62,789 nucleotides of DNA from Nitrospinaceae bacterium (GTDB taxonomy: Bacteria; Nitrospinota; Nitrospinia; Nitrospinales; Nitrospinaceae), in contig JAJDBJ010000061.1 of assembly GCA_029261395.1 (NCBI GenBank), positions 1-62,789 on the forward strand, given 5' to 3'. Positions 7,575 through 36,028 of the stretch are shown in pieces. The position numbers and the translations under genes are program-made. Under the pieces are notes generated by a model. It made no database searches and had not been told where the DNA came from. It saw only the letters and a program-made list of their open reading frames with translations. How positions within the stretch are numbered: position 1 is the stretch's first letter; each line of letters starts with the position of its first letter.

Positions 7575-7603
7575 TTGACAAAATGGATTTAAGGGCATAG
7601 ATT
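7575..7603 (+). promoter_or_regulatory. Sigma-70 promoter of the metal-efflux operon
   Basis: A consensus -35 (TTGACA, 7575-7580) is followed after 17 bases by TAGATT (7598-7603), a 4/6 match to the -10. It sits just upstream of the first gene of the efflux operon and in the divergent gap with the minus-strand operon. Confidence 0.65.
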
Positions 7604-7624
7604 TAGAGGGTGAGGTATTCCAAT

Positions 7625-7903
7625 ATGTCGAAAATGCTTTCGAGAAGATATAAGAGATTCGTTTGTGGCGTGGCATTCGTCCTGTTCTTTTGCCTGAGCC
7701 TGCAAGCCCCCCTTATGTCCTACGGTATGGACGGCATGAATTGCGCCACCAAGATCACTTGTGCCGCCTGCGGATGCGTCGTCAATTCTATTTCCTCCCC
7801 CTTATCGCTGTCTCCATTTTTTACCGAGCTGAATTCACAGGCGGAACTTCAGAGTCCCAAAGCTCTTCTCGTTCTGGAACCCCGGATCGAACCTCCCAGA
7901 TAG
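7625..7903 (+). CDS. Small Cys/Met-containing exported or membrane protein, first gene of the efflux operon
   Basis: 92 residues from the ATG at 7625, chosen over the GTG at 7610 because GAGGGTGAGG lies at the right distance. Residues about 12-35 form a hydrophobic signal or anchor helix (FVCGVAFVLFFCLSLQAPLM). Directly after it comes GMDGMNCATKITCAACGC, four Cys and two Met in a short span, which looks like a soft-metal site or disulfide-bonded loop. The rest is Ser/Pro-rich and unstructured. It may act as a periplasmic metal binder in the position that CusF holds in enterobacteria, but it has no CusF fold. No known family recognised. Confidence 0.65.
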   Translation: MSKMLSRRYKRFVCGVAFVLFFCLSLQAPLMSYGMDGMNCATKITCAACGCVVNSISSPLSLSPFFTELNSQAELQSPKALLVLEPRIEPPR

Positions 7904-8017: not shown

Positions 8018-9304
8018 ATGAAAAGAGTGGCCTTGATCACTTTAAGCCTATTACTGTTTACGCTTGAAGCCGGAGCAACCAACAAGCACGCCGGTCATTT
8101 CAAGCACACGTTGAACAAGTTTATCGAGACGGCAAAAAAGCAGAACCCAAACCTGCTCGAAGCCAAAAACCGCATCAACATCTACAAGCAGATCCCTGAC
8201 CAGAGAAGTTCATGGAAAGACCCCATGCTCACTCTCGGTCTGGCCAATCTTCCAGTGGACACGTTTTCTTTTCGGCAGGAGGCGATGACTCAAAAGCAGA
8301 TTCAAGTGACCCAGGAAATACCTTTTCCGGGTAAAACGTCTCTCAGAAAAGAAGCAGCGGATAAAGACGTCTCCATCGCAAAATGGAACCTCAAGGAATT
8401 AGAGTTGAATATCATTCGGCAGGTTAAAGAATCATTCTTTGAATTGTGCTTCATCAACTCATCCCTCGTGACAACGCAACAAAACAAAGTCCTTCTCAAG
8501 CAATTCGTCACCATTGCCGAATCCAAATACTCCGTCGGAAAGGGTATCCAGCAGGATGTATTGAAGGCCCAGGTCGAGTTGTCCAAAATCATGGACGAAT
8601 TGATCGAGCTGAGACAATTGCAGGCCAACGAAACGGCAAAACTGAACATCCTGATGAATCGCCTGCCGCAGGAGCCTCTCGAAATTCCACATGGACTGAC
8701 CCAAACCGATTTTAAATTTGGTATCAAAACGCTTCAGGATTTAGCGACAACGAACCGGCCTTTCCTACAGGGTATTCAGTCGGCGATTAATAAATTTACG
8801 ATCACCAAAGAACTTGCCGAGAAGGAATACTATCCCGACTTTCAGGTTGGAGTCCGGTACGGGCAACGCCAGGATTCTCCGATTCAGGATCACCCGGACT
8901 TTGTATCAGGATTTATCGGAGTCAACATTCCCATCTGGTTTGCCACTAAGCAAAGAAAAAAAGTGGCTGAGGAAAATTATCGAATTCTGACCGCCAAAGA
9001 TTCTTTTAATGCAGCGAAAAATGATATCTTTTTAAAAATCAAAATAATTATGGATAAAGAAATCAAAAGCCGGAAATTAATTGATTTAATCAAGACCGGT
9101 ATCATCCCGCAGGCCAGGCAATCTCTGGAGTCGGCTTTAGCCGGTTATAGCGTGGATAAAGTCGATTTCCTGACGCTCATCGATAATCAGGTCACCCTTT
9201 TGAAGTGGGAGATCAAATACCACCGTCAACTGACGGATTACGAACAGAATCTGGCGGCGTTGGAGCATGTGGTGGGACAACAACTGTTCGATTCCACCTC
9301 GTGA
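8018..9304 (+). CDS. cusC: TolC-family outer membrane efflux protein (CusC/CzcC-like)
   Basis: 428 residues from the ATG at 8018, which has GGAGG five bases upstream; a TTG at 8006 is less likely. A signal peptide (about 1-20, ending EAGA) is followed by two OEP repeats. The pattern KDPMLTLGLANLP, QIQVTQEIPFPGK, then FELCFINSSLVTTQQNKVLL and YPDFQVGVRYGQR is typical of TolC-type barrels with long periplasmic coiled coils. It should be the outer-membrane channel of the tripartite pump made by the next genes, ending ten bases before cusB. No lipobox Cys is seen, unlike E. coli CusC. Confidence 0.88.
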   Translation: MKRVALITLSLLLFTLEAGATNKHAGHFKHTLNKFIETAKKQNPNLLEAKNRINIYKQIPDQRSSWKDPMLTLGLANLPVDTFSFRQEAMTQKQIQVTQEIPFPGKTSLRKEAADKDVSIAKWNLKELELNIIRQVKESFFELCFINSSLVTTQQNKVLLKQFVTIAESKYSVGKGIQQDVLKAQVELSKIMDELIELRQLQANETAKLNILMNRLPQEPLEIPHGLTQTDFKFGIKTLQDLATTNRPFLQGIQSAINKFTITKELAEKEYYPDFQVGVRYGQRQDSPIQDHPDFVSGFIGVNIPIWFATKQRKKVAEENYRILTAKDSFNAAKNDIFLKIKIIMDKEIKSRKLIDLIKTGIIPQARQSLESALAGYSVDKVDFLTLIDNQVTLLKWEIKYHRQLTDYEQNLAALEHVVGQQLFDSTS

Positions 9305-9313
9305 GCATCAATT

Positions 9314-11011
9314 ATGAATGATAAAGACAATATAGAAAATAAAACGGATCCGGTCCCTCCCAGAGGACCTCTCGCGGAACATTCTGCAATACAACCAGCA
9401 GAGCAAACCGAGGAACAATCCGTAGAGCAGGAAGAGAAGATTATTTTCCCGAAAAATAACGAAGAAAAAGTTGATACTCCTCCGGCAAGAAAATCCGGCA
9501 TGAAGTTTTCTTATCCGAAATTTCTGGCGTTGATTCTGTTGATCATAGGAATTTACTTCGGTGGATTTTTTACCAGCTCGGAAAATCTCCAGGGAACAAT
9601 GGACCGAATTGATGGGTGGGTCCATATTTCCGAAGAAAAATTCGCTTCCTATAAAGAGCAACTGACTCAGGTCATTGAAACCAAGGTCAAGAATAAAGAG
9701 GCCGAACCTTTCTCTCCGGCGGTGACGGAAGGTGAGAAAACTCCTGGAAAAGAAAAAAGAAAAATCAAATACTGGAAGGCACCGATGACCCCCGGCTACA
9801 TTCGGGATAAACCCGGCAAAAGTCCCATGGGCATGGACCTGATTCCGGTTTATGAAGACGAATCAGAAGTCCCCGGGCAAATTAAAATCAACCCCACCAT
9901 GGTCCAGAATATCGGCGTAAAAACGGTAAAAGTCAAAAACCGCACGCTGACTCGTAAAATCCGAACTATCGGCCTCCTCACCTACGACGAAAGAATGGTG
10001 TACCACATTCATACCAAATATGACGGGTGGATCGAAAAGCTTCATGTTGATTTCACCGGGCAGGAAGTTGGCCAGAACGAATTGCTATTGGAAATTTATA
10101 GTCCGGAACTGGTATCAACTCAGGAGGAGTTTCTGCTGGCTTTAAAATACAAGGAGTCCCTGAAGCAAAGCCCGTTCACTGAGATCGGTGAAGCTGCAGA
10201 CACTTTACTGGCATCCACCCGCAAGCGGCTCCAATTGTTCGATGTCCCGGAACATCAAATCGAAGCTTTGATTCGCGACAAGGTAATCACAAAGACGATG
10301 CACATCCACTCGCCGGTCCGTGGGTTTGTTATCAAGAAAACGGCCTTGCAGGGAATGCGCGTCAAGCCGGGAATGAGCCTCTATATGATCGCCGACCTGT
10401 CGAATATCTGGGTAATGGCCGATGTTTATGAATATGAACTGCCCTGGGTTAAAGTCGGCCAAAAGGTAGAAATGAACCTTTCGTATTTCCCCGGAAAAAA
10501 ATTCTCCGGTAAGGTGACCTTTATCGATCCCTTTCTCGCCCCCAAGACCCGGACCCTCAAGGTGCGCATGGAGTTTGCCAACCCGAATTGGGAACTGAAA
10601 CCAGACATGTACGCCGACGTCAACATCAAATCCACCATCGCCAAAAGAGGAGGGGCGGTTCCCGCGGAAGCGGTGATCCACTCCGGCGAGAGAGATATCG
10701 TAATTGTCCAAGTCCCTTCCGGAGCATTTGAATCCCGGGAACTCACCCTGGGAACCCAGGCGGAGGGATACTTTCAGGTTCTCAAAGGGCTTCGCGCTGG
10801 AGAAACTGTAGTCACTTCTTCCAATTTCCTTATCGATTCCGAAAGCAATCTTCAAGAAGCCCTAAATAAATTGCAGACTGGGGAAAAAAGGGAAGAGCCC
10901 GAAAGACCGGACCGGAGCAAAGCAATGGATATGCCCAAAATGAACCATAAAAAAATGAAAAAAAAAGTTCCTGGTATTGTGGAAATATATCCTGACAAGC
11001 CAAAAAAATGA
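9314..11011 (+). CDS. cusB: RND efflux periplasmic adaptor (CusB-like) with heavy-metal-binding motif
   Basis: 565 residues. A long Glu/Gln-rich cytoplasmic N-terminus (about 1-60) precedes a single transmembrane helix (FLALILLIIGIYFGGFF, about 70-86). A heavy-metal-binding domain follows (YWKAPMTPGY with SPMGMDLIPVYE), then barrel-sandwich/lipoyl and beta-barrel domains of membrane fusion proteins (VHIHSPVRGFV-type turn, GMSLYMIADLSNIWVMADVYEYE). The C-terminus (MDMPKMNHKKMKKK) is Met/His-rich and could bind Cu(I) or Ag(I). It links CusA to the TolC-like channel. The unusually long N-terminal extension is absent in E. coli CusB. Confidence 0.9.
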   Translation: MNDKDNIENKTDPVPPRGPLAEHSAIQPAEQTEEQSVEQEEKIIFPKNNEEKVDTPPARKSGMKFSYPKFLALILLIIGIYFGGFFTSSENLQGTMDRIDGWVHISEEKFASYKEQLTQVIETKVKNKEAEPFSPAVTEGEKTPGKEKRKIKYWKAPMTPGYIRDKPGKSPMGMDLIPVYEDESEVPGQIKINPTMVQNIGVKTVKVKNRTLTRKIRTIGLLTYDERMVYHIHTKYDGWIEKLHVDFTGQEVGQNELLLEIYSPELVSTQEEFLLALKYKESLKQSPFTEIGEAADTLLASTRKRLQLFDVPEHQIEALIRDKVITKTMHIHSPVRGFVIKKTALQGMRVKPGMSLYMIADLSNIWVMADVYEYELPWVKVGQKVEMNLSYFPGKKFSGKVTFIDPFLAPKTRTLKVRMEFANPNWELKPDMYADVNIKSTIAKRGGAVPAEAVIHSGERDIVIVQVPSGAFESRELTLGTQAEGYFQVLKGLRAGETVVTSSNFLIDSESNLQEALNKLQTGEKREEPERPDRSKAMDMPKMNHKKMKKKVPGIVEIYPDKPKK

Positions 11012-11027
11012 ACGTGGAAACCATTAA

Positions 11028-11987
11028 ATGAATTTCCTATTAAAAGGCAGGTCGAAACTCTTTTGGAAAATTTACGGCATAGTTGCGGTCACACTCCTGG
11101 CAACGGCCAGCTTTTATTTCCAAAAAGGTTTTCTTGAAGGACATCATGCGGAGATTATGATGGTTTCACTATTACTGGTTGTTTTTCTATCTCTTCTTCT
11201 GTATTTCGATACCTTGAAAATAATGAAATCTCAACAAGAAACGATAGAAGGTTTGATGGGAATTAAGTTGTCTCTGGCCTCACTCATTGACCTGAAAGAT
11301 TCTTACACGGAAGGACATTCCAAGCATGTTCGTGATTTGGCAAGACAATTCGCTGACTATTTGAATTTGCCTTCAACAGAAATTGAGGAAATTACCACAG
11401 CGGCGGAACTGCACGATATCGGTAAAATCGGTGTCCCCGATTCTATTTTGAAAAAAAATGGAAAATTAAGCGACGATGAATTTTGTGAGATTAAAAAGCA
11501 CCCTCTGCTCGGAGCCAATTCGATCAAGTCCCTCAAAGGATTTGAAACTGCCGCCAAAATTATCCGCAACCATCATGAACGGTATGATGGTACCGGCTAT
11601 CCCGATGGCCTTTCTGCAGAACAGATTCCCTTAGGATCAAAGGTTCTAAGCATTGTAGACGCTTATGACGCGATGGCATTCGGCCGATCCTACCGCGCTG
11701 CGATGCAAAGAAATGATATTTTGAGCACCCTGCAACAAGGAATGGGCACCCAATTTGATCCCAATCTCACTTCCGCTTTTATAAAGTTTATTCAACAAAA
11801 GAGTAACCGCCATGACTACGATCCGGTGTGTGGAATGCCAATCGATCGGAGAAAGCCCTTATTTCAATTCACACATAAAAATCAAATGTATATTTTCTGC
11901 TCTGAAATTTGCCTTAAGGAATTCAAATGTTCCCCGGAAAAATACTCGAGGGAATCTCAGGAAAACAAACCATTATCGAAGTCATAA
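11028..11987 (+). CDS. Membrane HD-GYP phosphodiesterase fused to a C-terminal YHS metal-binding domain
   Basis: 319 residues. Two N-terminal transmembrane helices (about 12-31 and 43-61) lead to an HD-GYP domain (about 80-250). All expected residues are present: HSKHVRDLA, HDIGKIG (HD at 129-130), KKHPLLG, NHHERYDGTGYP and DAYDAM. The domain should hydrolyse cyclic di-GMP in the cytoplasm. Residues 264-305 form a YHS domain: DPVCGMPID (Cys268), then IFCSEICLKEF (Cys291, Cys295). The same domain occurs at the N-terminus of the CopA-like ATPase downstream. It lies between cusB and cusA, three bases before cusA. I infer that metal binding modulates the phosphodiesterase; this architecture is unusual. 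Confidence 0.88.
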   Translation: MNFLLKGRSKLFWKIYGIVAVTLLATASFYFQKGFLEGHHAEIMMVSLLLVVFLSLLLYFDTLKIMKSQQETIEGLMGIKLSLASLIDLKDSYTEGHSKHVRDLARQFADYLNLPSTEIEEITTAAELHDIGKIGVPDSILKKNGKLSDDEFCEIKKHPLLGANSIKSLKGFETAAKIIRNHHERYDGTGYPDGLSAEQIPLGSKVLSIVDAYDAMAFGRSYRAAMQRNDILSTLQQGMGTQFDPNLTSAFIKFIQQKSNRHDYDPVCGMPIDRRKPLFQFTHKNQMYIFCSEICLKEFKCSPEKYSRESQENKPLSKS

Positions 11988-11990
11988 CAG

Positions 11991-14900
11991 ATGCTTAAAA
12001 AAATTATAGCGCTCTCTTTGAAGAATCGATTCCTGGTTATTCTGGGTACCCTTTTTATCATCGCCTGGGGGCTTTACTCCATGCAACGTACTCCTTTGGA
12101 CGCCATACCGGATTTGAGTGACGTTCAAGTCATTATCTTCACCGAGTTTCCTGGCCAGGCGCCGCAAATTGTCGAAGACCAGATCACCTATCCCCTCACC
12201 ACCACCATGCTCTCGGTTCCCTTTGCCAAGATAGTTCGCGGTTATTCCTTTTTCGGGTTTTCGTTTGTTTACATTATTTTTGAAGATGGCACTGACTTGT
12301 ATTGGGCGCGAAGCAGGGTTCTTGAGCAACTGAATTTTGTGGCGGGACGATTGCCCCAGGGGATTACTCCCTCCCTGGGACCCGATGCCACCGGTGTCGG
12401 CTGGGTTTATGAATATGCTTTGGTTGACACAACCGGGAATAATGACTTGTCCAAATTACGTTCTATTCAGGACTGGTACCTGCGTTACGAACTGCAGACC
12501 GTGCCCGGCGTTTCCGAAGTGGCGAGCATCGGCGGATATGTCAAACAGTACCAGGTGGAAGTCGACCCCAATAAACTTCTCGCTTATAATCTTCCCTTAC
12601 CCACAATCATAAAGGCTATCAAACGCAGTAATAATGATGTAGGCGGAAGACTCCTGGAAATGTCGGAAACGGAATTTATGGTGCGGGGGTTGGGGTACAT
12701 TCAAAATATACAGGACATTAAAGAAATTGCCGTCGGAGTGGATGCCAAAGGGACACCTATACTAATGCAGGATGTGGCCAATATATCACTGGGTCCCGAA
12801 TTGAGGCGCGGTTTGGCAGAACTCAACGGGGAAGGAGAGGTGGCCGCCGGCGTGGTTGTGATGCGCTATGGGGAAAATGCCCTGGACGTTATTAACGGTG
12901 TCAAACGTAAACTGGAGGATTTAAAAAGCGGCTTGCCCGATGGTGTGGAGATAGTCCCGGTGTATGACCGCTCATCGTTGATCCTTCGGGCCATCGACAA
13001 CCTCAAGGAGAAGTTGCTTGAAGAAATCTTCGTCGTTTCCATCATCTGCATCATTTTCCTTCTGCATTTGCGGTCTGCCCTGGTGGCCATCCTGACCCTG
13101 CCGGTCGGCATTCTGATGGCCTTCATCGTCATGCAGAATCAGGGGTTGAGTGCAAATATCATGTCGCTGGGAGGTATCGCCATTGCCATCGGTGCCATGA
13201 TCGACGGTCCCATCGTTATGATTGAAAATGCTCATAAACATTTGGAACGCGATCAAGGTCAAAAAAATCATTGGCAAATTATTTATGAAGCCGCCGCAGA
13301 GGTAGGGCCCGCCCTGTTCTTCAGTCTTTTGATCATCACCGTATCATTCCTTCCGGTATTCACCCTGCAAGCCCAGGAAGGAAGAATGTTTTCGCCACTG
13401 GCTTTCACCAAAACCTATTCCATGGCCGCGGCAGCTATTCTTGCCGTTACCCTGGTCCCGGTCATGATGGGGTATTTTGTTCGCGGGCGGATTCTTCCGG
13501 AAAAAAGAAACCCGCTCAACTGGTTGCTCATCAGTATTTACAAGCCCATCATCTGGATGGTTCTTCACGCTAAAGTCCTGGTCATTGTCATCGCCCTGTT
13601 TATTCTTACGATCACGATCATCCCGCTCAAACAGCTCGGTTCCGAATTCATGCCGCCTTTGAACGAAGGCGACCTTTTATACATGCCCACTACCCTGCCC
13701 GGCATATCGATCACCAAAGCCAAGGAACTGCTTCAGCAGACCGACAAGATCATCAAACAGTTTCCGGAAGTGCATCATGTCTTCGGCAAAATTGGACGCG
13801 CGGAAACGGCCACAGACCCCGCGCCGCTCAGTATGATGGAAACCACGATCATGCTCAAGCCGGAAGATCAATGGCGACCCGGGATGACGATCAAGAAACT
13901 CGTCGATGAGATGGATGCGGCCATCCAATTCCCGGGCGTGACCAACGCCTGGACCATGCCGATCAAGACCCGGATTGATATGCTCTCCACCGGGATAAAG
14001 ACCCCCGTCGGAATTAAAATCGCCGGGGCTGATTTGAACATTCTTCAGAAACTGGGTGAACAGGTGGAATCGGCCGTCAGCAAAATACCGGGCACTCTCA
14101 GCGTTTATTCTGAACGCGTGGTGGGGGGGAACTATTTTGACTTCGAGATCGACCGGAAACAAGCCGCCCGCTATGGCTTAACTATTGGAGATATTCAAGA
14201 TGTTATTCAATCCGCCGTCGGGGGGATGAACATCACCACCACCATTGAAGGTCTCGAACGTTATCCCGTCAACCTGCGTTACAGCCGGGATCTGCGTGAT
14301 GATATTAATAAATTGAAACGAGTTCTGATCCCGACACCCTTGGGGCAACATGTCCCGATTACTCAGGTTGCAAAAATTGTTATAAAAAAAGGTCCACCAG
14401 CGATAAAAAGTGAAAACGCCCGACTCAACGCCTGGATTTATATCGACCTAAAGGGAATCGACGTCGGCACCTATGTGGAGCAGGCCAAAAAAATCATACA
14501 GGAAAAAATTTCACTGCCGCAAGGATACAGTCTGATCTGGAGCGGCCAGTATGAATATATGGAACGGGCCAAGGAACGTCTGAAACTCGTCGTGCCCTTC
14601 ACCCTCCTCATCATATTCCTGCTCTTGTATTTCAATTTTAATAATATTACTGAGAGTTTGGTCGTTATGCTTTCCCTTCCCTTAGCCCTTGTGGGAGGAA
14701 TTTGGTATATTTACTATCTGGATTACGATTTGAGCGTGGCGGTGGTGGTGGGTTTCATCGCTGTGGCCGGCCTCGCTTCGGAAATCGGCGTACTGGTTCT
14801 CGTCTATATTGACCACGCCTACCATAAAAAAATGGAGACTGAAGGAATTAACAGTAAAGCAGATTTGATTGAAGTCATCATTCAGGGCACCTCGGAACGA

Positions 14901-15116
14901 GTTCGGCCGATTATGATGACCGTAACTTCCACCGTTGGCGGCCTGCTCCCGATTATGTGGGGCAGTGGAACCGGGTCCGAGACCATGCAACGCATCGCCG
15001 CGCCGATGGTCGGCGGCATGGTGTCCGCCACTTTATTAACCCTGATCGTGATCCCCGCCATATATACTTTGATCTTGGAGCATCGTCTCAAGAAATCCGG
15101 TCAATTCACTGATTAG
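11991..15116 (+). CDS. cusA: Heavy-metal RND pump (CusA-type, Cu/Ag)
   Basis: 1041 residues, normal for heavy-metal RND pumps. Twelve transmembrane helices and two large periplasmic loops are evident. TM4 reads GGIAIAIGAMIDGPIVMIENAHKHL, which matches CusA and lacks the extra acidic residues of Zn/Co-type CzcA. RIDMLSTGIKTPVGIKI and SAVGGMNI carry Met residues at places used for the Cu/Ag relay in CusA. It exports monovalent soft metal from periplasm and cytoplasm using proton motive force together with the CusB and TolC-like subunits. It starts three bases after the HD-GYP-YHS gene with no clear ribosome binding site, suggesting coupling. Substrate is inferred from motifs. Confidence 0.93.
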   Translation: MLKKIIALSLKNRFLVILGTLFIIAWGLYSMQRTPLDAIPDLSDVQVIIFTEFPGQAPQIVEDQITYPLTTTMLSVPFAKIVRGYSFFGFSFVYIIFEDGTDLYWARSRVLEQLNFVAGRLPQGITPSLGPDATGVGWVYEYALVDTTGNNDLSKLRSIQDWYLRYELQTVPGVSEVASIGGYVKQYQVEVDPNKLLAYNLPLPTIIKAIKRSNNDVGGRLLEMSETEFMVRGLGYIQNIQDIKEIAVGVDAKGTPILMQDVANISLGPELRRGLAELNGEGEVAAGVVVMRYGENALDVINGVKRKLEDLKSGLPDGVEIVPVYDRSSLILRAIDNLKEKLLEEIFVVSIICIIFLLHLRSALVAILTLPVGILMAFIVMQNQGLSANIMSLGGIAIAIGAMIDGPIVMIENAHKHLERDQGQKNHWQIIYEAAAEVGPALFFSLLIITVSFLPVFTLQAQEGRMFSPLAFTKTYSMAAAAILAVTLVPVMMGYFVRGRILPEKRNPLNWLLISIYKPIIWMVLHAKVLVIVIALFILTITIIPLKQLGSEFMPPLNEGDLLYMPTTLPGISITKAKELLQQTDKIIKQFPEVHHVFGKIGRAETATDPAPLSMMETTIMLKPEDQWRPGMTIKKLVDEMDAAIQFPGVTNAWTMPIKTRIDMLSTGIKTPVGIKIAGADLNILQKLGEQVESAVSKIPGTLSVYSERVVGGNYFDFEIDRKQAARYGLTIGDIQDVIQSAVGGMNITTTIEGLERYPVNLRYSRDLRDDINKLKRVLIPTPLGQHVPITQVAKIVIKKGPPAIKSENARLNAWIYIDLKGIDVGTYVEQAKKIIQEKISLPQGYSLIWSGQYEYMERAKERLKLVVPFTLLIIFLLLYFNFNNITESLVVMLSLPLALVGGIWYIYYLDYDLSVAVVVGFIAVAGLASEIGVLVLVYIDHAYHKKMETEGINSKADLIEVIIQGTSERVRPIMMTVTSTVGGLLPIMWGSGTGSETMQRIAAPMVGGMVSATLLTLIVIPAIYTLILEHRLKKSGQFTD

Positions 15117-15145: not shown

Positions 15146-17506
15146 ATGCTCGATCAAGAACTGGAAAATTCCAACGAAGCGCACTTTGTAAAAGATCCAG
15201 TATGCGGGATGGATGTTGATCCCAATGATTCCGAATTTTCATTTAGCCTGCACAATACGACCTACCATTTCTGCAGTGAGAGTTGTCGGGAAAAATTTAT
15301 CAAAACTCCAGAAAAGTTTATTGATCCTCAGCCAAATTTTCCTGAAAGAACTCACGATAAAAGTCATGAGGAAAATGCCGGTCCAGATGCCAGTGAATAT
15401 ACCTGCCCCATGCACCCGGAAGTAGTTCAACAAGGTCCTGGAAATTGCCCCATCTGTGGCATGGCATTGGAAAAACGGCAAGTTAGTATGGAGGAAGAGA
15501 CGAATCATGAATTGATTGACATGACCCGGCGGTTTTGGGTCAGTCTTATTCTTACAGTACCTATCTTTCTTATAGCAATGTCAGAAATATTGCCCGGCAA
15601 ACCACTACAAGATACCTTGCCGATAAGTGTCTTAACCTGGATCCAGTTAATTCTAGCTACTCCTGTTGTGCTTTGGGGAGGTTTCCCATTTTTTCAACGT
15701 GGATGGGTGTCTATTTTGACGCGTCACCTGAATATGTTCACATTAATTGCTCTGGGAACCGGAGCCGCCTACTTCTATAGTTTTGCGGCAACCGTTGTCC
15801 CGGCAATATTCCCTTCATCCTTTAGAGGTGAGTCTGGAGAAGTCGCGGTTTATTTTGAAGCCGCTGCAGTTATTGTGACTCTGGTACTTCTAGGACAAGT
15901 TTTGGAGTTGAAAGCACGGCACCAAACAGGAGCGGCCATCAAAGCCCTTCTGGGTCTTGCGCCAAAATCCGCACGCAGAATTCGCAAAGACGATTCCGAG
16001 GAGGACGTTTCTCTCGATCAGGTTCACCCTGGGGACAAGTTGCGCGTACGCCCGGGAGAAAAAGTGCCCGTTGATGGCACTGTCATTGAAGGAAACAGTA
16101 CCGTAGACGAGTCGATGGTGACTGGAGAGCCCATTCCAGTCGAAAAGCAGCCTGGAGAACGTGTTATAGGAGCGACCATTAACGGTACCGGATCTTTGGT
16201 CATGCAAGCTCAGCGAGTTGGAGCAGATACTTTACTTGCCCAAATCGTGCAAATGGTGTCGGAAGCACAGCGTAGCCGCGCCCCTATCCAGAGGTTGGCA
16301 GATACGGTAGCGGGTTATTTTGTTCCAATAGTCGTTTTGATTGCAATCATCACATTCATAGTCTGGGGGATTATAGGGCCTGAACCCAGAATGGCTCATG
16401 CGCTCATAAATGCGGTAGCTGTGCTCATCATTGCTTGTCCTTGCGCATTGGGACTTGCAACCCCAATGTCCATCATGGTAGCGACAGGAACCGGTGCGAA
16501 CATGGGGGTTTTGTTCAAAAACGCTGAAGCTATTGAAGAAATGCGAAAGATCGATACCCTAGTGGTAGACAAAACCGGAACACTTACAGAAGGGAAGCCA
16601 AAACTGGTTACCGTAGTGCCTGAAAAAGAGTTTGATGAGAACCGTCTGCTTCGCCTGGTCGCCAGCCTTGAACGTGGAAGTGAGCATCCTTTGGCAGCTG
16701 CGATCGTCGCTGGCGCACAAAATCGTGGTATCGAGCTAACGGGCACAGAATCCTTTCAGTCCAAGACAGGCAAGGGGGTTACTGGGCGTGTGGATGGACA
16801 TTTCATTGCACTCGGGAATGATAGACTTATGGAGGAAATCGGAGCCGATATTGTAGAGTTCTTATCAGTGACTGAAAAATACCGTAGCGAAGGACAAACA
16901 GTAATGTATGTGGCGGTGGATGGTCGGATCGCCGGACTCATCGGGGTTGCCGATCCAATTAAAAAAACCACACAAGAAGCTATCAATCAGCTCCACCATG
17001 AGGGCATCCGAGTAGTCATGGTGACGGGGGATAACAGGATCACGGCCGAGGCCGTTGGCAAAAAACTTGGAATCGATGATGTGATTGCTGATGTTCTCCC
17101 GGATAAAAAAGCGGAAATTGTCAAACGATTACAAGCCGATGGGAAGATTGTTGCAATGGCAGGCGATGGAATCAACGACGCCCCAGGGCTGGCACAAGCT
17201 CAAGTTGGAATAGCGATGGGAACTGGTACAGACGTGGCTATGGAAAGCGCTGGAGTCACCCTGGTGAAAGGTGATTTACGAGGAATCGTGCGAGCACTTC
17301 GTTTGAGTCGGGCCACCATGCGCAACATCAAACAGAATTTATTCTTTGCGTTTATCTATAATGGATTGGGGGTCCCCATCGCCGCCGGCGTCCTTTACCC
17401 GGTATTGGGTATTCTTCTTAGTCCGATGATCGCAGCCGCGGCTATGAGTATTAGTTCAGTTTCCATAATAGGAAATGCGTTGCGACTTAAACATACAGAA
17501 TTTTGA
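15146..17506 (+). CDS. copA: Copper-type P1B ATPase with N-terminal YHS and heavy-metal-binding domains
   Basis: 786 residues. Residues 16-60 are a YHS domain ([19 protein letters not shown]), and 85-110 a heavy-metal-binding domain ([19 protein letters not shown]). These replace the usual HMA domains. Eight membrane helices follow, with the transport motif [10 protein letters not shown] in TM6, phosphorylation motif [11 protein letters not shown], actuator motif TGEP, GSEHPLA for nucleotide binding and [11 protein letters not shown]. It should export Cu(I) or Ag(I) from the cytoplasm at the expense of ATP. GGAGG is present seven bases before the ATG. It is preceded by cusA with a 29-base gap, so the pump and ATPase form one detoxification operon. 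Confidence 0.93.
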
Positions 17507-17614: not shown

Positions 17615-18199
17615 GTGAAAACAATAAATATACTTTTCTTATTATTCTCTATTGTTCTGACCAGCCTGACCGCGGCACCTGCCTACAGCCATGTGATACC
17701 GGAGGACCAGCTGCGCAATCAGGTTTACCTGAGCACCCGCCAAGCGCTACAAAAGGTTTTTGCAGGTGTTCACAAAATCAAAAAGGAAAGCCGAAAATTG
17801 TCTGCGTCCCAACAATTGCAAATTGAAAAACTCCTGCAACGCAAAATTGAAGATCGGCGCATTGAGTTTTTTACCGCCCGCAAAGATGACCTCACATTAT
17901 ACGCCACCGTCGGTAAAATCTATGTCAATTCGCATCCCGTCACCAAAGCCAGGTTCATTGTCTTGATGGACTCTAAGGGACAGCTTGAGGAGTGCCGTAT
18001 CATGGAGTACCAGGGCCCACAACGTGCAGAGATTATTTCCCGTACTTTTCTGGATCAATTTCTGGGCAAATCCGCCGAATCCGATTTCAGCACGGTGACC
18101 AGCAACCAGGGCTCCACTCCACCGGTTAAGGCCCTGATCCAGGAGGTGCAAAAAACACTGGCTTTATACAAAGTACTCTATATGGATTCCAGTAATTGA
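17615..18199 (+). CDS. Exported FMN_bind-like protein
   Basis: 194 residues from the GTG at 17615. A signal peptide (about 1-25, ending AYS) indicates export. The segment GKIYVNSHPVTKARFIVLMD and the end (VTSNQGSTPPVKALIQEVQK) resemble the FMN_bind domain of RnfG/NosR-type proteins. However, the SGAT-type Thr used for covalent flavin attachment is not clearly preserved. It lies after the CopA gene with a 108-base A/T-rich gap and has no close partner. It may be a periplasmic redox or accessory protein; low certainty on function, good certainty on being a real exported protein. Confidence 0.6.
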   Translation: MKTINILFLLFSIVLTSLTAAPAYSHVIPEDQLRNQVYLSTRQALQKVFAGVHKIKKESRKLSASQQLQIEKLLQRKIEDRRIEFFTARKDDLTLYATVGKIYVNSHPVTKARFIVLMDSKGQLEECRIMEYQGPQRAEIISRTFLDQFLGKSAESDFSTVTSNQGSTPPVKALIQEVQKTLALYKVLYMDSSN

Positions 18200-26076: not shown

Positions 26077-26105
26077 TTGACAACTTATCACCGTTAATAT
26101 ACATT
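26077..26105 (+). promoter_or_regulatory. Promoter of the FTR1 operon
   Basis: TTGACA (26077-26082), 17 bases, then TACATT (26100-26105), a 4/6 -10. The Fur box starts directly after the -10, so it would cover the transcription start. Confidence 0.6.
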
Positions 26106-26124
26106 GATAATCATTATCATTATT
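26106..26124 (+). promoter_or_regulatory. Fur box overlapping the FTR1 promoter
   Basis: GATAATCATTATC (26106-26118) is a perfect 6-1-6 inverted repeat of the Fur hexamer GATAAT, and ATTATT (26119-26124) supplies a third half site. Fur-Fe2+ bound here would block the start of transcription. A fur gene lies at 51434 in the same window. The leader up to the ATG at 26194 is about 75 bases. Confidence 0.85.
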
Positions 26125-26193
26125 AAAATAATAAGAATAAGATCCATTTTACAAAGTCTATTAAAGAGACTGTTAATAAAACCAAAGGATAAA

Positions 26194-28329
26194 ATGTTCC
26201 TCAAAAATAAACCGCTGAACACAACAGGACTCTTCGCCTCCCTAATGGGATTCCTTTTATTGGCCCTGCAATTCCCAACCTTCGCAGTGGCTCAACCTGC
26301 GAAATTGGAATCCAACGTCAAAAAGATTGTGATGATGATGAATATCGTCAAAAAAGAGTACCACGCAGGAATTGCGGAGGGGAAAATCATCAACGCGGCG
26401 GAGTACGAAGAGAGTCAGGTATTCCTGGAACAGGCGCTTGATCGCTATCAAAAACTGGTTAATGGAGCAAACCCACAAGGACAAAAGGACGACCTAGCCA
26501 ATCGATTTTCTTCGCTGGGTATCAAGATAAAGGCAAAAGAAGACCCCAGTGTAATCCAATCTGAAGTTAACGCCATCAATTCCGGAATCCTTAAAAAATT
26601 CAATATCCAGCTCAGCCAAACGCCCTCTGAACCTGTATCATTAGAGAATGGTCGCATCTTATATATGAATAATTGCAAGGTATGTCATGGAGTTGAAGGT
26701 AAAGGAGATGGCCCCATAGCGCTACAATTGGATCCCAGGCCAGCGGTATTGTCCAATCCTCAGTTCACCGGCGACAAATTTTCAAAACCTTTTGACAACT
26801 TCCAAATCATCAACGTGGGCATTGCTAATACGGCGATGGTGGGCTGGGCCGATCAGTTTTCTGAGAAGGAGCTTTGGGATGTCACTTATTTCATCCGCAC
26901 GTTTTCGAATGAAAACGTAAAAATTCCACTATTGGCTTCCCAGGTCTCATCCACAGACCAGAAAAAAATAACCAATAAAACCTTCGACCAGGTTTTTTCT
27001 TTACTCAAGCAGAGCATGGAACTTTATCGGCAAGGCCTAGGCCCGGAGGCGACGGAGTCTATTGTTGACACCTACCTGGTTTATGAAAAAGTAGAGACCG
27101 TTTTAATCACTAAACAAAAAGAACTGGCACTTAAGCTGGAATCTTCCTTTGGGAGATTGCAGGCGGAGATTAAGAGAAAAGCATCTATCGAGTTAGTAGA
27201 AAAAGTTGGCCAGGGAATTTTCGATGATCTAAAAGAGGCGCAACAGGTTCTGACTCAGGAGATCGGGTTTACCGGTTTGTTCATCCAATCCCTCTCAATC
27301 ATTGTACGGGAAGGGTTTGAAGCGATTTTGATCATCGCGGCGCTGATCACGTTCCTCGTCAAATCCCGCAATAGAGACAAGTTGAAAGCCATTTACATGG
27401 GTGTGTTGATCGGGATCATTGGTAGTTTTATCACCGCCTATATCCTGCAGGAAATTCTGGATATCAGTATGGCCAGCCAGGAAATGATGGAGGGAGTCAT
27501 CATGCTGGTGGCGGTCGTTGTTCTATTTTATGTCAGCTACTGGCTGGTCTCAAAAATCGAGGCGACCAAATGGCAAAGTTACATTACCGGCAAAATGCAG
27601 AAAGCGGTTTCCACAGGCAGTGCGTTTACCCTGAGTATGGTTGCTTTCCTCTCAGTTTATCGGGAAGGATTTGAGACGGTTCTGTTTTACAAGGCTCTGT
27701 ATCTTTATGCTGGAGATACCACTGCCGGGATCATCCCGGGATTCGTTGCAGGATGTGCCGTTTTAGCCGTGGTCTATTTTCTGATCAACCAATTGGGGAT
27801 GCGCATCCCGGTTAAATGGTTCTTCGTGGTCACCAGTTTTTTCCTTTATTACATGGCATTCATGTTCATGGGGAAGGGACTTCACCAATTACAAATGGGT
27901 GGCGCCCTGGGTATAACCGGCGCTGACTTTGTTCCGGAAATTCCCTGGCTCGGTATATACCCGACCTGGGAAACGTTCATCGGCCAAATGATACTCGTGG
28001 TGGCCTATGCCGGAGCTTTGATTTATACCTTCGGCATCAAGCATGAACGAGCAACTCATGAACTTAAATCGGAGGCCACCCAGCTCCAGCAGAATATTGC
28101 CGTGGTGCACGATCTAGTCGAGCATATTTCGCATCACGCCAAACGCTGTGAAATCTTCCTCAAGGATACCGGCGACCAGGATCTTAAGGAACTGTCCGAG
28201 CATTTGAAGGAAATCGACTCCAAAGTCCATGAACTGTTCGATCAAGTGAACTATTTTGAAAATAGCCTGACGGATGAGTACGATCGCTTGACGCAACCTA
28301 TTGGCGCCAAGGAAAAGGATTTGCATTGA
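26194..28329 (+). CDS. FTR1-family iron permease fused to a cytochrome c domain
   Basis: 711 residues from the ATG at 26194 (AAAGGA just upstream); an earlier in-frame TTG at 26104 lies within the Fur box and would give a spurious lead. A signal peptide (1-34, ending AVA) leads to a periplasmic region with the haem motif CKVCH (161-165) and [10 protein letters not shown], that is a class I cytochrome c domain. After it come about seven membrane helices with two REGFE motifs ([11 protein letters not shown] and [11 protein letters not shown]), the iron-translocating REXXE of FTR1. The C-terminal 90 residues form a coiled coil ([14 protein letters not shown]). It imports Fe, probably with oxidation coupled to the cytochrome. 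Next gene overlaps by four bases. Confidence 0.92.
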
Positions 28330-29885
28330 GATTCCGGTTTTTTAAAACCTCTCGTGATTTTCACAAATGGACCGGGTTTGTCTGCGCAATTTTCATCCTG
28401 ATACTTTCCGTGAGCGGTATCCTGCTCATGCACCGGGACTCCCTGGAGCTGGGGCAGATAGAAGTTTCCGCTCAATACCTGCCCGATAAATATTTCCATC
28501 TGGTTAAAGACAAACTCAAAATCCAAACCGTTGCGGTGAATCCTCAAAACGAAAAAGTTATTTTCGTGGGCACCGGTAGCGGATTGTTCCGCTCCCAAGA
28601 CGGAGGAGACACCTGGCAGTCTCTTCATGAAGGATTGCGTGATGAAAATATCCGTGCGTTGGCTTTATCCCCTTCCACACCCAACATGATTTATGCCGGC
28701 ACTTCTAAAGGAATTTTCTTATCCGAAGATGGCGGGGATCATTGGACCGACTGGTTTGAGGAATCTTCCGGCTTGTCGAGCATGGATATCCAAGACCTGG
28801 TCATTCATCCCGAAAAACCGGAACTCCTGTTTGCCGCCACCTCCGGCGGTTTGTTTGTTTCGCAAGATGAAGGCGACACCTGGGAGTTCGCCTTTGAAGG
28901 AAGCCTGGCCAAGGGAAGCCGGGATGTGCGTTTTATCCGTTTTTCCTCAAAGGCTCGCTCTTTGTATATAGGAACGGCCGGCGGAGTTTTCAAAAGCGCC
29001 GATGGCGGTAAGCAGTGGGACAAAAAATGGGAGGACGCCCTACCCTCGCCTCTGTCACTGGTATCCTTGGACACCGACCCTGAATTTATTTATGCCGGCG
29101 CGCCGGACGGGCTTTACAAATCTTACAACAAAGGGATCACCTGGATTCACGACACGACACAGGACAAATCCGTGAGCCAATTACTGGTGGACCCCGGAAA
29201 CACGACCCATATTTACATGGCGACGACCCATCGTGTTTTCGTTTCCCCCGATGGCGGAGACACCTGGAATCCCCTGGGTTTTGAAAAAGCGAAGGGAATG
29301 ACGCTGGACAACCTGACTCTGATTCGTTCCGCCCCGCAATCCTCCCCTACCCTGATCGCTGGTACTTCAAGCGGTCTTTTTATTTCCAAAAATGGGGGAC
29401 GCACATGGGAGGAAACTTCACTCGCGGCAACCATACAACAAAAATCCGGCGGCCATCTCAAAATGGACCTCGTCAAACTGATGACGGAAATCCACACCGG
29501 ACGCTTTTTTGGTGATTACGTGTATCTACTGGTGGACATCGCCACCGTCGGACTGATGGCGCTGGTATTCTCCGGATTCGGCTTGGCATTCTACCGAAAG
29601 CGGATTGCCAAATCCAAACAGGTCAAAAAACAAATTACAGAAGAAGAAGCGGTGGATAATATTCTCGATATTCAGGAAACCGCAGACGATTTATCGCAGG
29701 AGAGCGCCGAAATCCATGACATGATCGAGCATATCAACACCCACCTGGCCAAGTGCCGATCAGCCTATATCTCAAAGGAAAAAAAGGAAGTCGATAAAAT
29801 AGGGCGGCACATCACAGAGTTAGACAGGAGAATGCATCATTTGATGGGGAAAATCGAGGAGTTCAACAAACTCACAGAGGATTGA
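28326..29885 (+). CDS. PepSY-TM/Asp-box (BNR) repeat protein with coiled-coil tail
   Basis: 519 residues from TTG at 28326, which overlaps the FTR1 stop (TTGA) and has AAGGAT at the right distance, so translation is coupled. An N-terminal PepSY-type helix ([20 protein letters not shown], about 12-31) precedes a periplasmic beta-propeller with at least seven Asp-boxes, for example [22 protein letters not shown] and [12 protein letters not shown] second helix ([20 protein letters not shown]) leads to a cytoplasmic coiled coil with [14 protein letters not shown], close to the FTR1 tail. Propellers of this sort bind partners rather than hydrolyse sugars. It is probably a subunit of the iron permease. 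Confidence 0.8.
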
Positions 29886-34333: not shown

Positions 34334-36028
34334 ATGGCACAGTCGCAATCAGGAAAGACCTCACCCGCCGCAACAGAAAAGGATTCCGTTTATGCTTTTC
34401 TGACTTCTTCTAAAAATGCGGATAACCCTTATGTTGAGCATCTGATTCAACAGATCAACCGACTGGCGGAAATTGGTCGGGCCCTTTCCGGCGAGCACGA
34501 CCTCAATACCCTCTTGGAAAAAATTTGCGATGAAGTCTGCAAATTCACTTATGCAGATGCCTGCACCCTTTATATCGCCAAAGAAAACCAGCTTCATATA
34601 AGAATATTTCAAAACAAATCCATGGGAATTCGGATGGGAGGCAAAACTGGAGAGACCCTTAACATGTCTCCTGTGGATCTGATCGAATCTAATGTATCCG
34701 CTTATGTTGCCCTTAAGGGAGTTTCAGTCAACATACCGGATGTCTATGATACGGACTTATTCGATTTCACAGGCCCGAAGGAGTTCGATCAGGAAACGGG
34801 TTACCATTCCACTTCCATGCTGGTCTGCCCCATGCGCAACCATGAGAACGACATCATCGGGGTTCTGCAATTGGTCAACGCGATTAATCCGGACACTCGT
34901 GAGATCATCCCCTTTTTACCCGATTACGTCAGTCTCACCGAATCTCTGGCCTCGCAAGCAGCCGTATCCATTACCAATGCCCGCTTGATTAACGATATGG
35001 AGCATCTCTTTGAGTCTTTCGTAGAGGTCATGGCGACCGCGATCGATGAAAAATCCCCGATCACAGGAGGGCACATTCGTCGAGTGGCCAACCTGACAAT
35101 GGTCATGGCCGAAGAACTGCACAAAAACACCAAGCCCCCGTTCCAGAATGTCCATTTCACTCCGGAAAAATTTCATGAACTACGGGTGGCCTCCTGGATG
35201 CACGATATCGGCAAGGTCACAACTCCCGTGGAAATCATAGAAAAAAGCAAAAAGCTGGAAACCATTTTTGACCGGGTTCAGTTTGTGGACCTGAGAATGC
35301 AATTCATCATACAGAGTATCCAGTTGGAAGCGGCCCAAACTCTATTAAAATTGACCCGTGATGGAGACGCTCCTGAAAAAATTAAAAACCTTGAAGGGAG
35401 CACTAAAAAAACTATTCAAGAACTAAAGGAAGTCAGGGAATTCATCCTGAAGTGCAATGAGCCTTCTGAGTTTTTGGAGGATGAATGCATTGAGCGCCTC
35501 CAGGCTATTGCCCAAAGGACTTACAAGGACGAGGATGGGAATCAGCAACCCTTTTTAACTTCAGATGAGCTCAAGAATTTGTCTATCCGCAAAGGAAGCA
35601 TTAACGACCAAGAGCGCCAAATAATGAAAAATCACGCTCAAATCACCTTGGACATGCTCGATAAAATTCCTTTCACTAAAAAACTTAAAAATATTCCTAA
35701 TTTTGCGGGGGCGCATCACGAATGTATCAATGGATTGGGATATCCTCTGGGGCTCCAGGGCGAAGAAATTCCATTTGAAGGGAAATTGATGGCGGTCACA
35801 GATATCGCAGAAGCGTTAACCGCCAAGGACCGGCCGTATAAAAAAGCGATGCCTCTGGAGCAAGTCTACAAAATTTTAAGAAAGATGGTGAACGACAATG
35901 AGCTCGACCGAGATCTGGTAGATTTTTTTATCAACGAAAAAGTGTACGAAACCTATCAGGCAATATATGAAATACCCGACTCACCCCAGTCATTAAAAGA
36001 ATCACCCAAAAACAAAAAAGACCCCTAA
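34334..36028 (+). CDS. GAF domain HD-GYP phosphodiesterase
   Basis: 564 residues. A GAF domain (about 45-220: INRLAEIGRALSGEHDLNTL, DACTLYIAKENQLHI) is followed by an HD-GYP domain. Its residues are HIRRVANLT, WMHDIGKVTTP, then a long insertion of about 110-130 residues (coiled-coil-like, EAAQTLLKL to AIAQRTYKD), and finally MKNHAQITLDML, AHHECINGLGYPLGLQ and VTDIAEALTAKDRPYK. The residues for metal and cyclic di-GMP are all present. The protein is soluble; the GAF domain probably senses a small ligand. The insertion is unusual. The ATG follows a promoter with an operator-like palindrome. Confidence 0.88.
   Translation: MAQSQSGKTSPAATEKDSVYAFLTSSKNADNPYVEHLIQQINRLAEIGRALSGEHDLNTLLEKICDEVCKFTYADACTLYIAKENQLHIRIFQNKSMGIRMGGKTGETLNMSPVDLIESNVSAYVALKGVSVNIPDVYDTDLFDFTGPKEFDQETGYHSTSMLVCPMRNHENDIIGVLQLVNAINPDTREIIPFLPDYVSLTESLASQAAVSITNARLINDMEHLFESFVEVMATAIDEKSPITGGHIRRVANLTMVMAEELHKNTKPPFQNVHFTPEKFHELRVASWMHDIGKVTTPVEIIEKSKKLETIFDRVQFVDLRMQFIIQSIQLEAAQTLLKLTRDGDAPEKIKNLEGSTKKTIQELKEVREFILKCNEPSEFLEDECIERLQAIAQRTYKDEDGNQQPFLTSDELKNLSIRKGSINDQERQIMKNHAQITLDMLDKIPFTKKLKNIPNFAGAHHECINGLGYPLGLQGEEIPFEGKLMAVTDIAEALTAKDRPYKKAMPLEQVYKILRKMVNDNELDRDLVDFFINEKVYETYQAIYEIPDSPQSLKESPKNKKDP

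Follow-up and report, generated by a model that had tools for sequence, protein, structure and literature searches.

Metal stress is known to alter c-di-GMP levels. Neither YHS nor copper appears in the 2022 census of c-di-GMP sensory inputs, which, heme aside, gives mechanistic insight among metal ions only for zinc on DgcZ; some c-di-GMP enzymes are inhibited by metal or heme, DgcZ by Zn and CdpA by heme. For YHS domains, the main precedent is the M. phlei AC (MpAC), whose C-terminal YHS domain is needed for activation by Cu at 1-10 μM, an effect that is copper-specific among the tested metals; D178, C181, C204 and C208 are its proposed ligands and copper is the probable ligand bound. Copper binding by a YHS domain is known just indirectly and for this enzyme alone (PMC4626032). 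The YHS domain of toluene 4-hydroxylase had no metal bound in the crystal. A second precedent is Mrp/Urf2, an EAL phosphodiesterase (PDE) of the Tn501/Tn21 mer operons that is metal-induced together with its operon in Cupriavidus, where c-di-GMP drops under cadmium (PMC6629876). Our literature search, which reached few subscription papers, returned no paper in which a YHS domain is brought together with HD-GYP or cyclic di-GMP.

Here we describe a gene that joins the two. It lies in the window, by which we mean the whole 62,789-nucleotide stretch of DNA from a Nitrospinaceae bacterium that was analysed, and has the following features:

11028 to 11987, forward strand: HD-GYP-YHS gene (two transmembrane (TM) helices, HD-GYP, YHS), an intact 319-residue frame
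11034 to 11210, forward strand: two TM helices, about residues 3-30 and residues 41-61 (hydropathy; AlphaFold model)
11274 to 11801, forward strand: HD-GYP domain, residues 83-258 (PF13487, 4.3e-37; PDB matches PmGH, PA4781 and V-cGAP3)
11412 to 11417, forward strand: HD motif H129-D130 (family-wide invariance)
11571 to 11603, forward strand: HHExxDGxGYP motif, residues 182-192 (sequence; alignment)
11820 to 11945, forward strand: YHS domain, residues 265-306, with predicted metal ligands D265, C268, C291 and C295 (PF04945, 4.7e-9)

The Pfam matches are an HD_5 domain at residues 83-247 (E=4.3e-37) and a YHS domain at residues 265-306 (PF04945, E=4.7e-9, 36.5 bits against a gathering cut-off of 30.3), each scoring higher than its Pfam cut-off. 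The first-pass annotation had claimed that the protein ends in a YHS module of the same type as that of the neighbouring CopA, and PF04945 is indeed found in both (E=1.2e-11 for the CopA copy). In the AlphaFold model (mean pLDDT 84, mostly 85-98 in the HD-GYP domain) the leading helices span residues 3-30 and 36-90, the second TM helix (residues 41-61) running unbroken to residue 90 and into the HD-GYP domain, while the YHS domain, modelled with a hairpin over residues 279-290 and then a helix at 293-301, follows shortly after the last HD-GYP helix (245-258). Foldseek against the PDB recovers the HD-GYP fold (4mcw, 3e-12; 4r8z, 3.7e-12), with PmGH, PA4781 and c-di-GMP-bound DvhD as the nearest solved folds; by sequence, the nearest PDB entry is V-cGAP3 (phmmer). 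Given the basic residues ahead of the first TM helix, the positive-inside rule would place both soluble domains in the cytoplasm, on the same side as the YHS domain of CopA.

The catalytic signature is complete, with HHERYDGTGYP at residues 182-192 and I200 completing HHExxDGxGYPxxxxxxxI, and the HD motif at H129-D130; D187 of this signature is replaced by N in one family member. The seven metal ligands that the two HD-GYP subfamilies share are present, namely H97 (H189 in PmGH), H129/D130 (H221/D222), H158 (H250), H182/H183 (H276/H277) and D211 (D305). Other residues with PmGH equivalents are D91 (D183), K133 (K225), D214 (D308), R220 (R314), R223 (K317) and I200 (I294), and all mapped positions save that of E185 are invariant in a six-member alignment. 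The eighth ligand (E/D) of the trinuclear E/D-T-G subfamily is absent: Tyr93 stands at the position of PmGH E185 in all members, and because of this we assign the protein to the Y/F subfamily, making it probably binuclear. The PmGH authors predicted the Y/F subfamily to be binuclear, and their E185A mutant was weaker yet still active (PMC4159591). An earlier statement that all HD-GYP residues are present thus needs qualifying: the HD...HHExxDGxGYP signature stands, with seven of the eight PmGH metal ligands and Tyr93 in place of E185.

HD-GYP substrates vary, some enzymes favouring 3'3'-cGAMP or pGpG and some proteins merely binding nucleotide, so c-di-GMP is the expected substrate here, though others are possible. 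A receptor-only role like that of DvhD is unlikely, since this protein keeps both its HD and its HH residues, whereas DvhD has lost its HD motif. The window's genome holds 11 GGDEF matches, 5 PilZ matches and at least 6 further HD-GYP-like proteins, so the protein has a c-di-GMP network on which to act. These observations bear on a reading in which the YHS domain is a metal store or chaperone, buffering copper at the membrane near CusA/CopA or supplying or protecting the HD-GYP metal site, and the HD-GYP domain serves 3'3'-cGAMP, pGpG or a receptor function only. The same YHS family in the neighbouring CopA, the diversity of HD-GYP substrates and V-cGAP3 being the best phmmer match in the PDB would all suit it, but the catalytic set is intact, unlike that of DvhD, and GGDEF and PilZ proteins are encoded in the genome; we consider it very improbable.

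Elsewhere in the window, a GAF and HD-GYP-type protein (34334-36028, forward strand) has an HD domain that is apparently split, with HD at residues 245-307 and HD_5 resuming at residue 411, leaving an insert of about 100 residues within the catalytic domain. A protein combining an FTR1 iron-permease domain with a cytochrome c domain (26104-28329, forward strand) is directly followed by a PepSY_TM protein in which BNR/sortilin-like repeats are apparently inserted between membrane segments (28326-29885, forward strand).

The fusion recurs. Full-length copies were found in 6 of 77 genomes of the window's phylum: G000, G014 (86%), G026 and G027 (67-68%), G008 (48%) and G063 (47%), the start of the gene in G063 coinciding with the contig end. 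A seventh carrier, G324 (62%), is a Nitrospirota genome sampled from the phylum of a Nitrospiraceae record, and its copy begins at the counterpart of M77, hence without the membrane part. The frame is identical across the seven genomes, which rules out a frameshift or mis-assembly fusing two genes. The putative metal site Asp/Cys-x-x-Cys ... Cys-x3-Cys, here D265, C268, C291 and C295, is kept in all seven members (the CopA YHS fragment misaligned when added and was left out of the family alignment used for folding). Between the closer pairs, dN/dS was about 0.10-0.21 in HD-GYP and 0.13-0.40 in YHS, values well below 1 that point to purifying selection on both domains, less tight on YHS. The YHS domain is also the less conserved one in identity (52% against 73% for HD-GYP between G000 and G027). 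Because seven genomes carry the fusion and dN/dS is well below 1 in both domains, sequence comparison identifies HD-GYP-YHS as a real, selected unit rather than a chance joining.

The pattern of conservation matters for another explanation, namely that the PDE is active whatever the metal and is coupled to copper only by being made when the operon is induced, the YHS domain being structural or a contact for a dimer or a partner, perhaps CopA or the pump. Mrp/Urf2 offers a model for this, being induced with the mer operon and having no known metal-sensing domain (PMC6629876), as does the metal-free YHS crystal of toluene 4-hydroxylase. However, none of the four predicted metal residues varies even as the remainder of the YHS domain diverges, and MpAC requires its YHS domain for Cu activation (PMC4626032). 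We regard coupling through expression alone as unlikely.

Outside the phylum, the fusion is scarce at the depth of our search. No full-length fusion was found at E<=1e-31 in sampled genomes of the Pseudomonadota phylum (398), the Desulfobacteraceae phylum (395) or the phyla of the Acidobacteria (297) and Planctomycetota (294) representatives, and 1 of 396 sampled Nitrospirota genomes carried one; the best 9-13 candidates were scored for most genomes, and divergent fusions may drop below the threshold. Of 80 loci from genome contigs, one was a fusion, namely the 86% relative, and a common architecture is rejected within this scope. No fusion was seen on plasmids, where the two long-coverage matches that we opened (Treponema and Burkholderia glumae) were plain HD-GYPs. 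The first-pass annotation had called for a database search for this architecture; the fusion turned up in seven genomes and, within the searched scope, not as a well-known one with another role.

In the window, the gene sits among genes for copper efflux:

7610 to 7903, forward strand: possible small secreted Cys-rich ORF (CATKITCAACGC), ahead of the efflux operon
8018 to 9304, forward strand: TolC-type outer-membrane efflux gene (PF02321, 5.2e-39), ATG with a Shine-Dalgarno-like GGAGG
9314 to 11011, forward strand: CusB-like periplasmic adaptor with a heavy-metal-binding domain (PF16576, PF19335; TIGR01730 above cut-off)
11991 to 15116, forward strand: CusA/CzcA-family RND heavy-metal pump (TIGR00914, 1261 bits, above cut-off)
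15146 to 17506, forward strand: CopA-like Cu-type P1B-ATPase with N-terminal YHS and HMBD (TIGR01511, 625 bits against a cut-off of 397)

The order is TolC-CusB-[HD-GYP-YHS]-CusA-CopA, with intergenic gaps of 9, 16, 3 and 29 bp that suggest a single operon (the TolC-like gene is taken to start at ATG 8018; the ORF program begins at TTG 8006). The claim that the gene lies within a copper efflux operon is thus borne out, as it comes third in a row of closely spaced genes. The metal is likely copper or silver, because of the TIGR01511 match, the CusB-like features of the adaptor (which matches the specific CusB model below that model's cut-off) and, in two relatives, the neighbouring multicopper oxidases. 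Upstream, the small ORF (7610-7903) begins with a signal-like segment, contains the cysteine cluster CAACGC and may be a copper-related leader or secreted protein; it is preceded by a sigma-70-like site (10/12, at 7575-7603), of a kind regionally no commoner than in shuffles. Downstream, 17615-18199 (forward strand) encodes a 194-residue predicted exported protein without a Pfam match, whose relatives lie directly 3' of cusA in G019 (55%) and in G004, G007, G008 and G041 (about 30-34%); by this synteny it is a conserved unknown of the phylum's cusA operons.

Comparison of neighbourhoods provides a further view of the gene. The order cusB-PDE-cusA, co-directional, is found in five genomes of three families (G000, G014, G026, G027 and G008). 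In G063 a multicopper oxidase cluster lies downstream of the fusion gene and resembles the cluster after cusA in G027, and in G324 MerF, a MerA-like reductase and a MerR-family regulator come before the fusion gene, with TolC-CusB-CusA following closely downstream of it. All readable flanks are therefore copper, or mercury plus copper, resistance clusters. In the G324 locus (L158, 2603-10060) the mer genes, with the MerA-like reductase spread over two ORFs, adjoin the soluble HD-GYP-YHS and the Cus-type efflux genes. Most cus operons of the relatives lack the fusion gene, cusA following cusB immediately in about 20 of the phylum's other operons, and the gene is thus not a core operon component. 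Strict vertical inheritance with cusA is rejected on two grounds: the distribution of carriers on the CusA tree implies no fewer than 4 gains or losses, and the G324 PDE shares 76% identity with those of G026/G027, against 59% between the G324 CusA and the window CusA. The gene behaves as a mobile accessory of metal-resistance clusters, judging from these comparisons, and because it moves yet ends up beside copper or mercury resistance genes, there is good evidence that the role of its product is tied to metal.

Taken together, we think it somewhat probable that HD-GYP-YHS is a metal-gated, probably copper-gated, membrane-anchored cyclic-dinucleotide PDE co-expressed with Cus/CopA efflux, activation being the sense suggested by analogy. 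We infer catalysis, substrate, metal identity, operon induction, sign of control and output, and the mechanism would run as follows. A rise in copper would induce the operon, so that the efflux machinery and the PDE are made together. Cytoplasmic soft metal, most likely copper, would bind the YHS domain through D265, C268, C291 and C295, and the loaded domain, packed immediately behind the final helix of HD-GYP, would alter the state of the enzyme. If it activates the PDE, as in MpAC, c-di-GMP would fall and the cell would leave or avoid the attached state while pumping copper out. Activation and a fall in c-di-GMP are favoured because of the MpAC and mer-operon PDE precedents, the sign being set solely by analogy. 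Metal on the YHS domain could conversely inhibit the PDE, so that copper raises c-di-GMP and favours a protective biofilm: Zn inhibits DgcZ, heme inhibits CdpA, and the sign of control is not fixed by sequence. Against this, the biochemically tested enzyme-linked YHS domain, that of MpAC, activates (PMC4626032), and Cupriavidus c-di-GMP is lowered under metal stress (PMC6629876), so we find inhibition quite improbable.

The first-pass interpretation, that metal load is linked to c-di-GMP breakdown, is supported in part. The domain architecture, the catalytic signature and the setting within a copper operon are all confirmed and are conserved. The link itself is the most economical reading, and each half of it has a published precedent, a Cu-activated YHS cyclase (PMC4626032) and a metal-induced mer PDE (PMC6629876). 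The component domains are all of known kinds; their combination, HD-GYP with YHS, is a new element within the literature and genomes searched. We see the chances as evenly balanced that the gene encodes a copper-gated c-di-GMP PDE, which would be the first enzyme of c-di-GMP turnover to carry a copper sensor of the YHS (TRASH-like) type, and that it is a movable Cus accessory gene whose product reports cytoplasmic copper to the attachment network. If so, excess copper may directly switch the settle-or-swim signal. With just two domains in a compact pair, HD-GYP-YHS is a clean system in which to ask how copper gates an HD-GYP enzyme and whether efflux is wired to lifestyle, and the membrane-free Nitrospirota copy (G324) is a natural construct for purification.

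Among known systems, PmGH of Persephonella marina (PDB 4MCW) shares the fold, seven of eight metal ligands, substrate-contact residues and a long lead-in helix, but it has a GAF input and a trinuclear centre (Glu185, here Tyr93) and lacks YHS and TM parts (PMC4159591). DgcZ likewise shows direct metal-ion control of a c-di-GMP enzyme, but it is a diguanylate cyclase that responds to zinc through an unrelated helical CZB domain (PMC8846402). Mrp/Urf2 is, like this gene, a c-di-GMP PDE encoded inside a metal-resistance operon, whereas its fold is EAL with DUF3330, without YHS or HD-GYP, and its sensing is, as far as known, transcriptional only (PMC6629876). MpAC resembles the protein in being a second-messenger enzyme with a C-terminal YHS domain behind an 8-residue linker, and its D178/C181/C204/C208 correspond to D265/C268/C291/C295 in equal order and spacing (D-x2-C, C-x3-C). 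It differs in being a class IIIc cyclase that makes cAMP, whereas HD-GYP-YHS is predicted to destroy a cyclic dinucleotide, and no TM part is described for it, nor, in the text consulted, a copper-efflux operon context (PMC4626032). Exchanging the cyclase of MpAC for an HD-GYP domain would yield a copper-controlled PDE.
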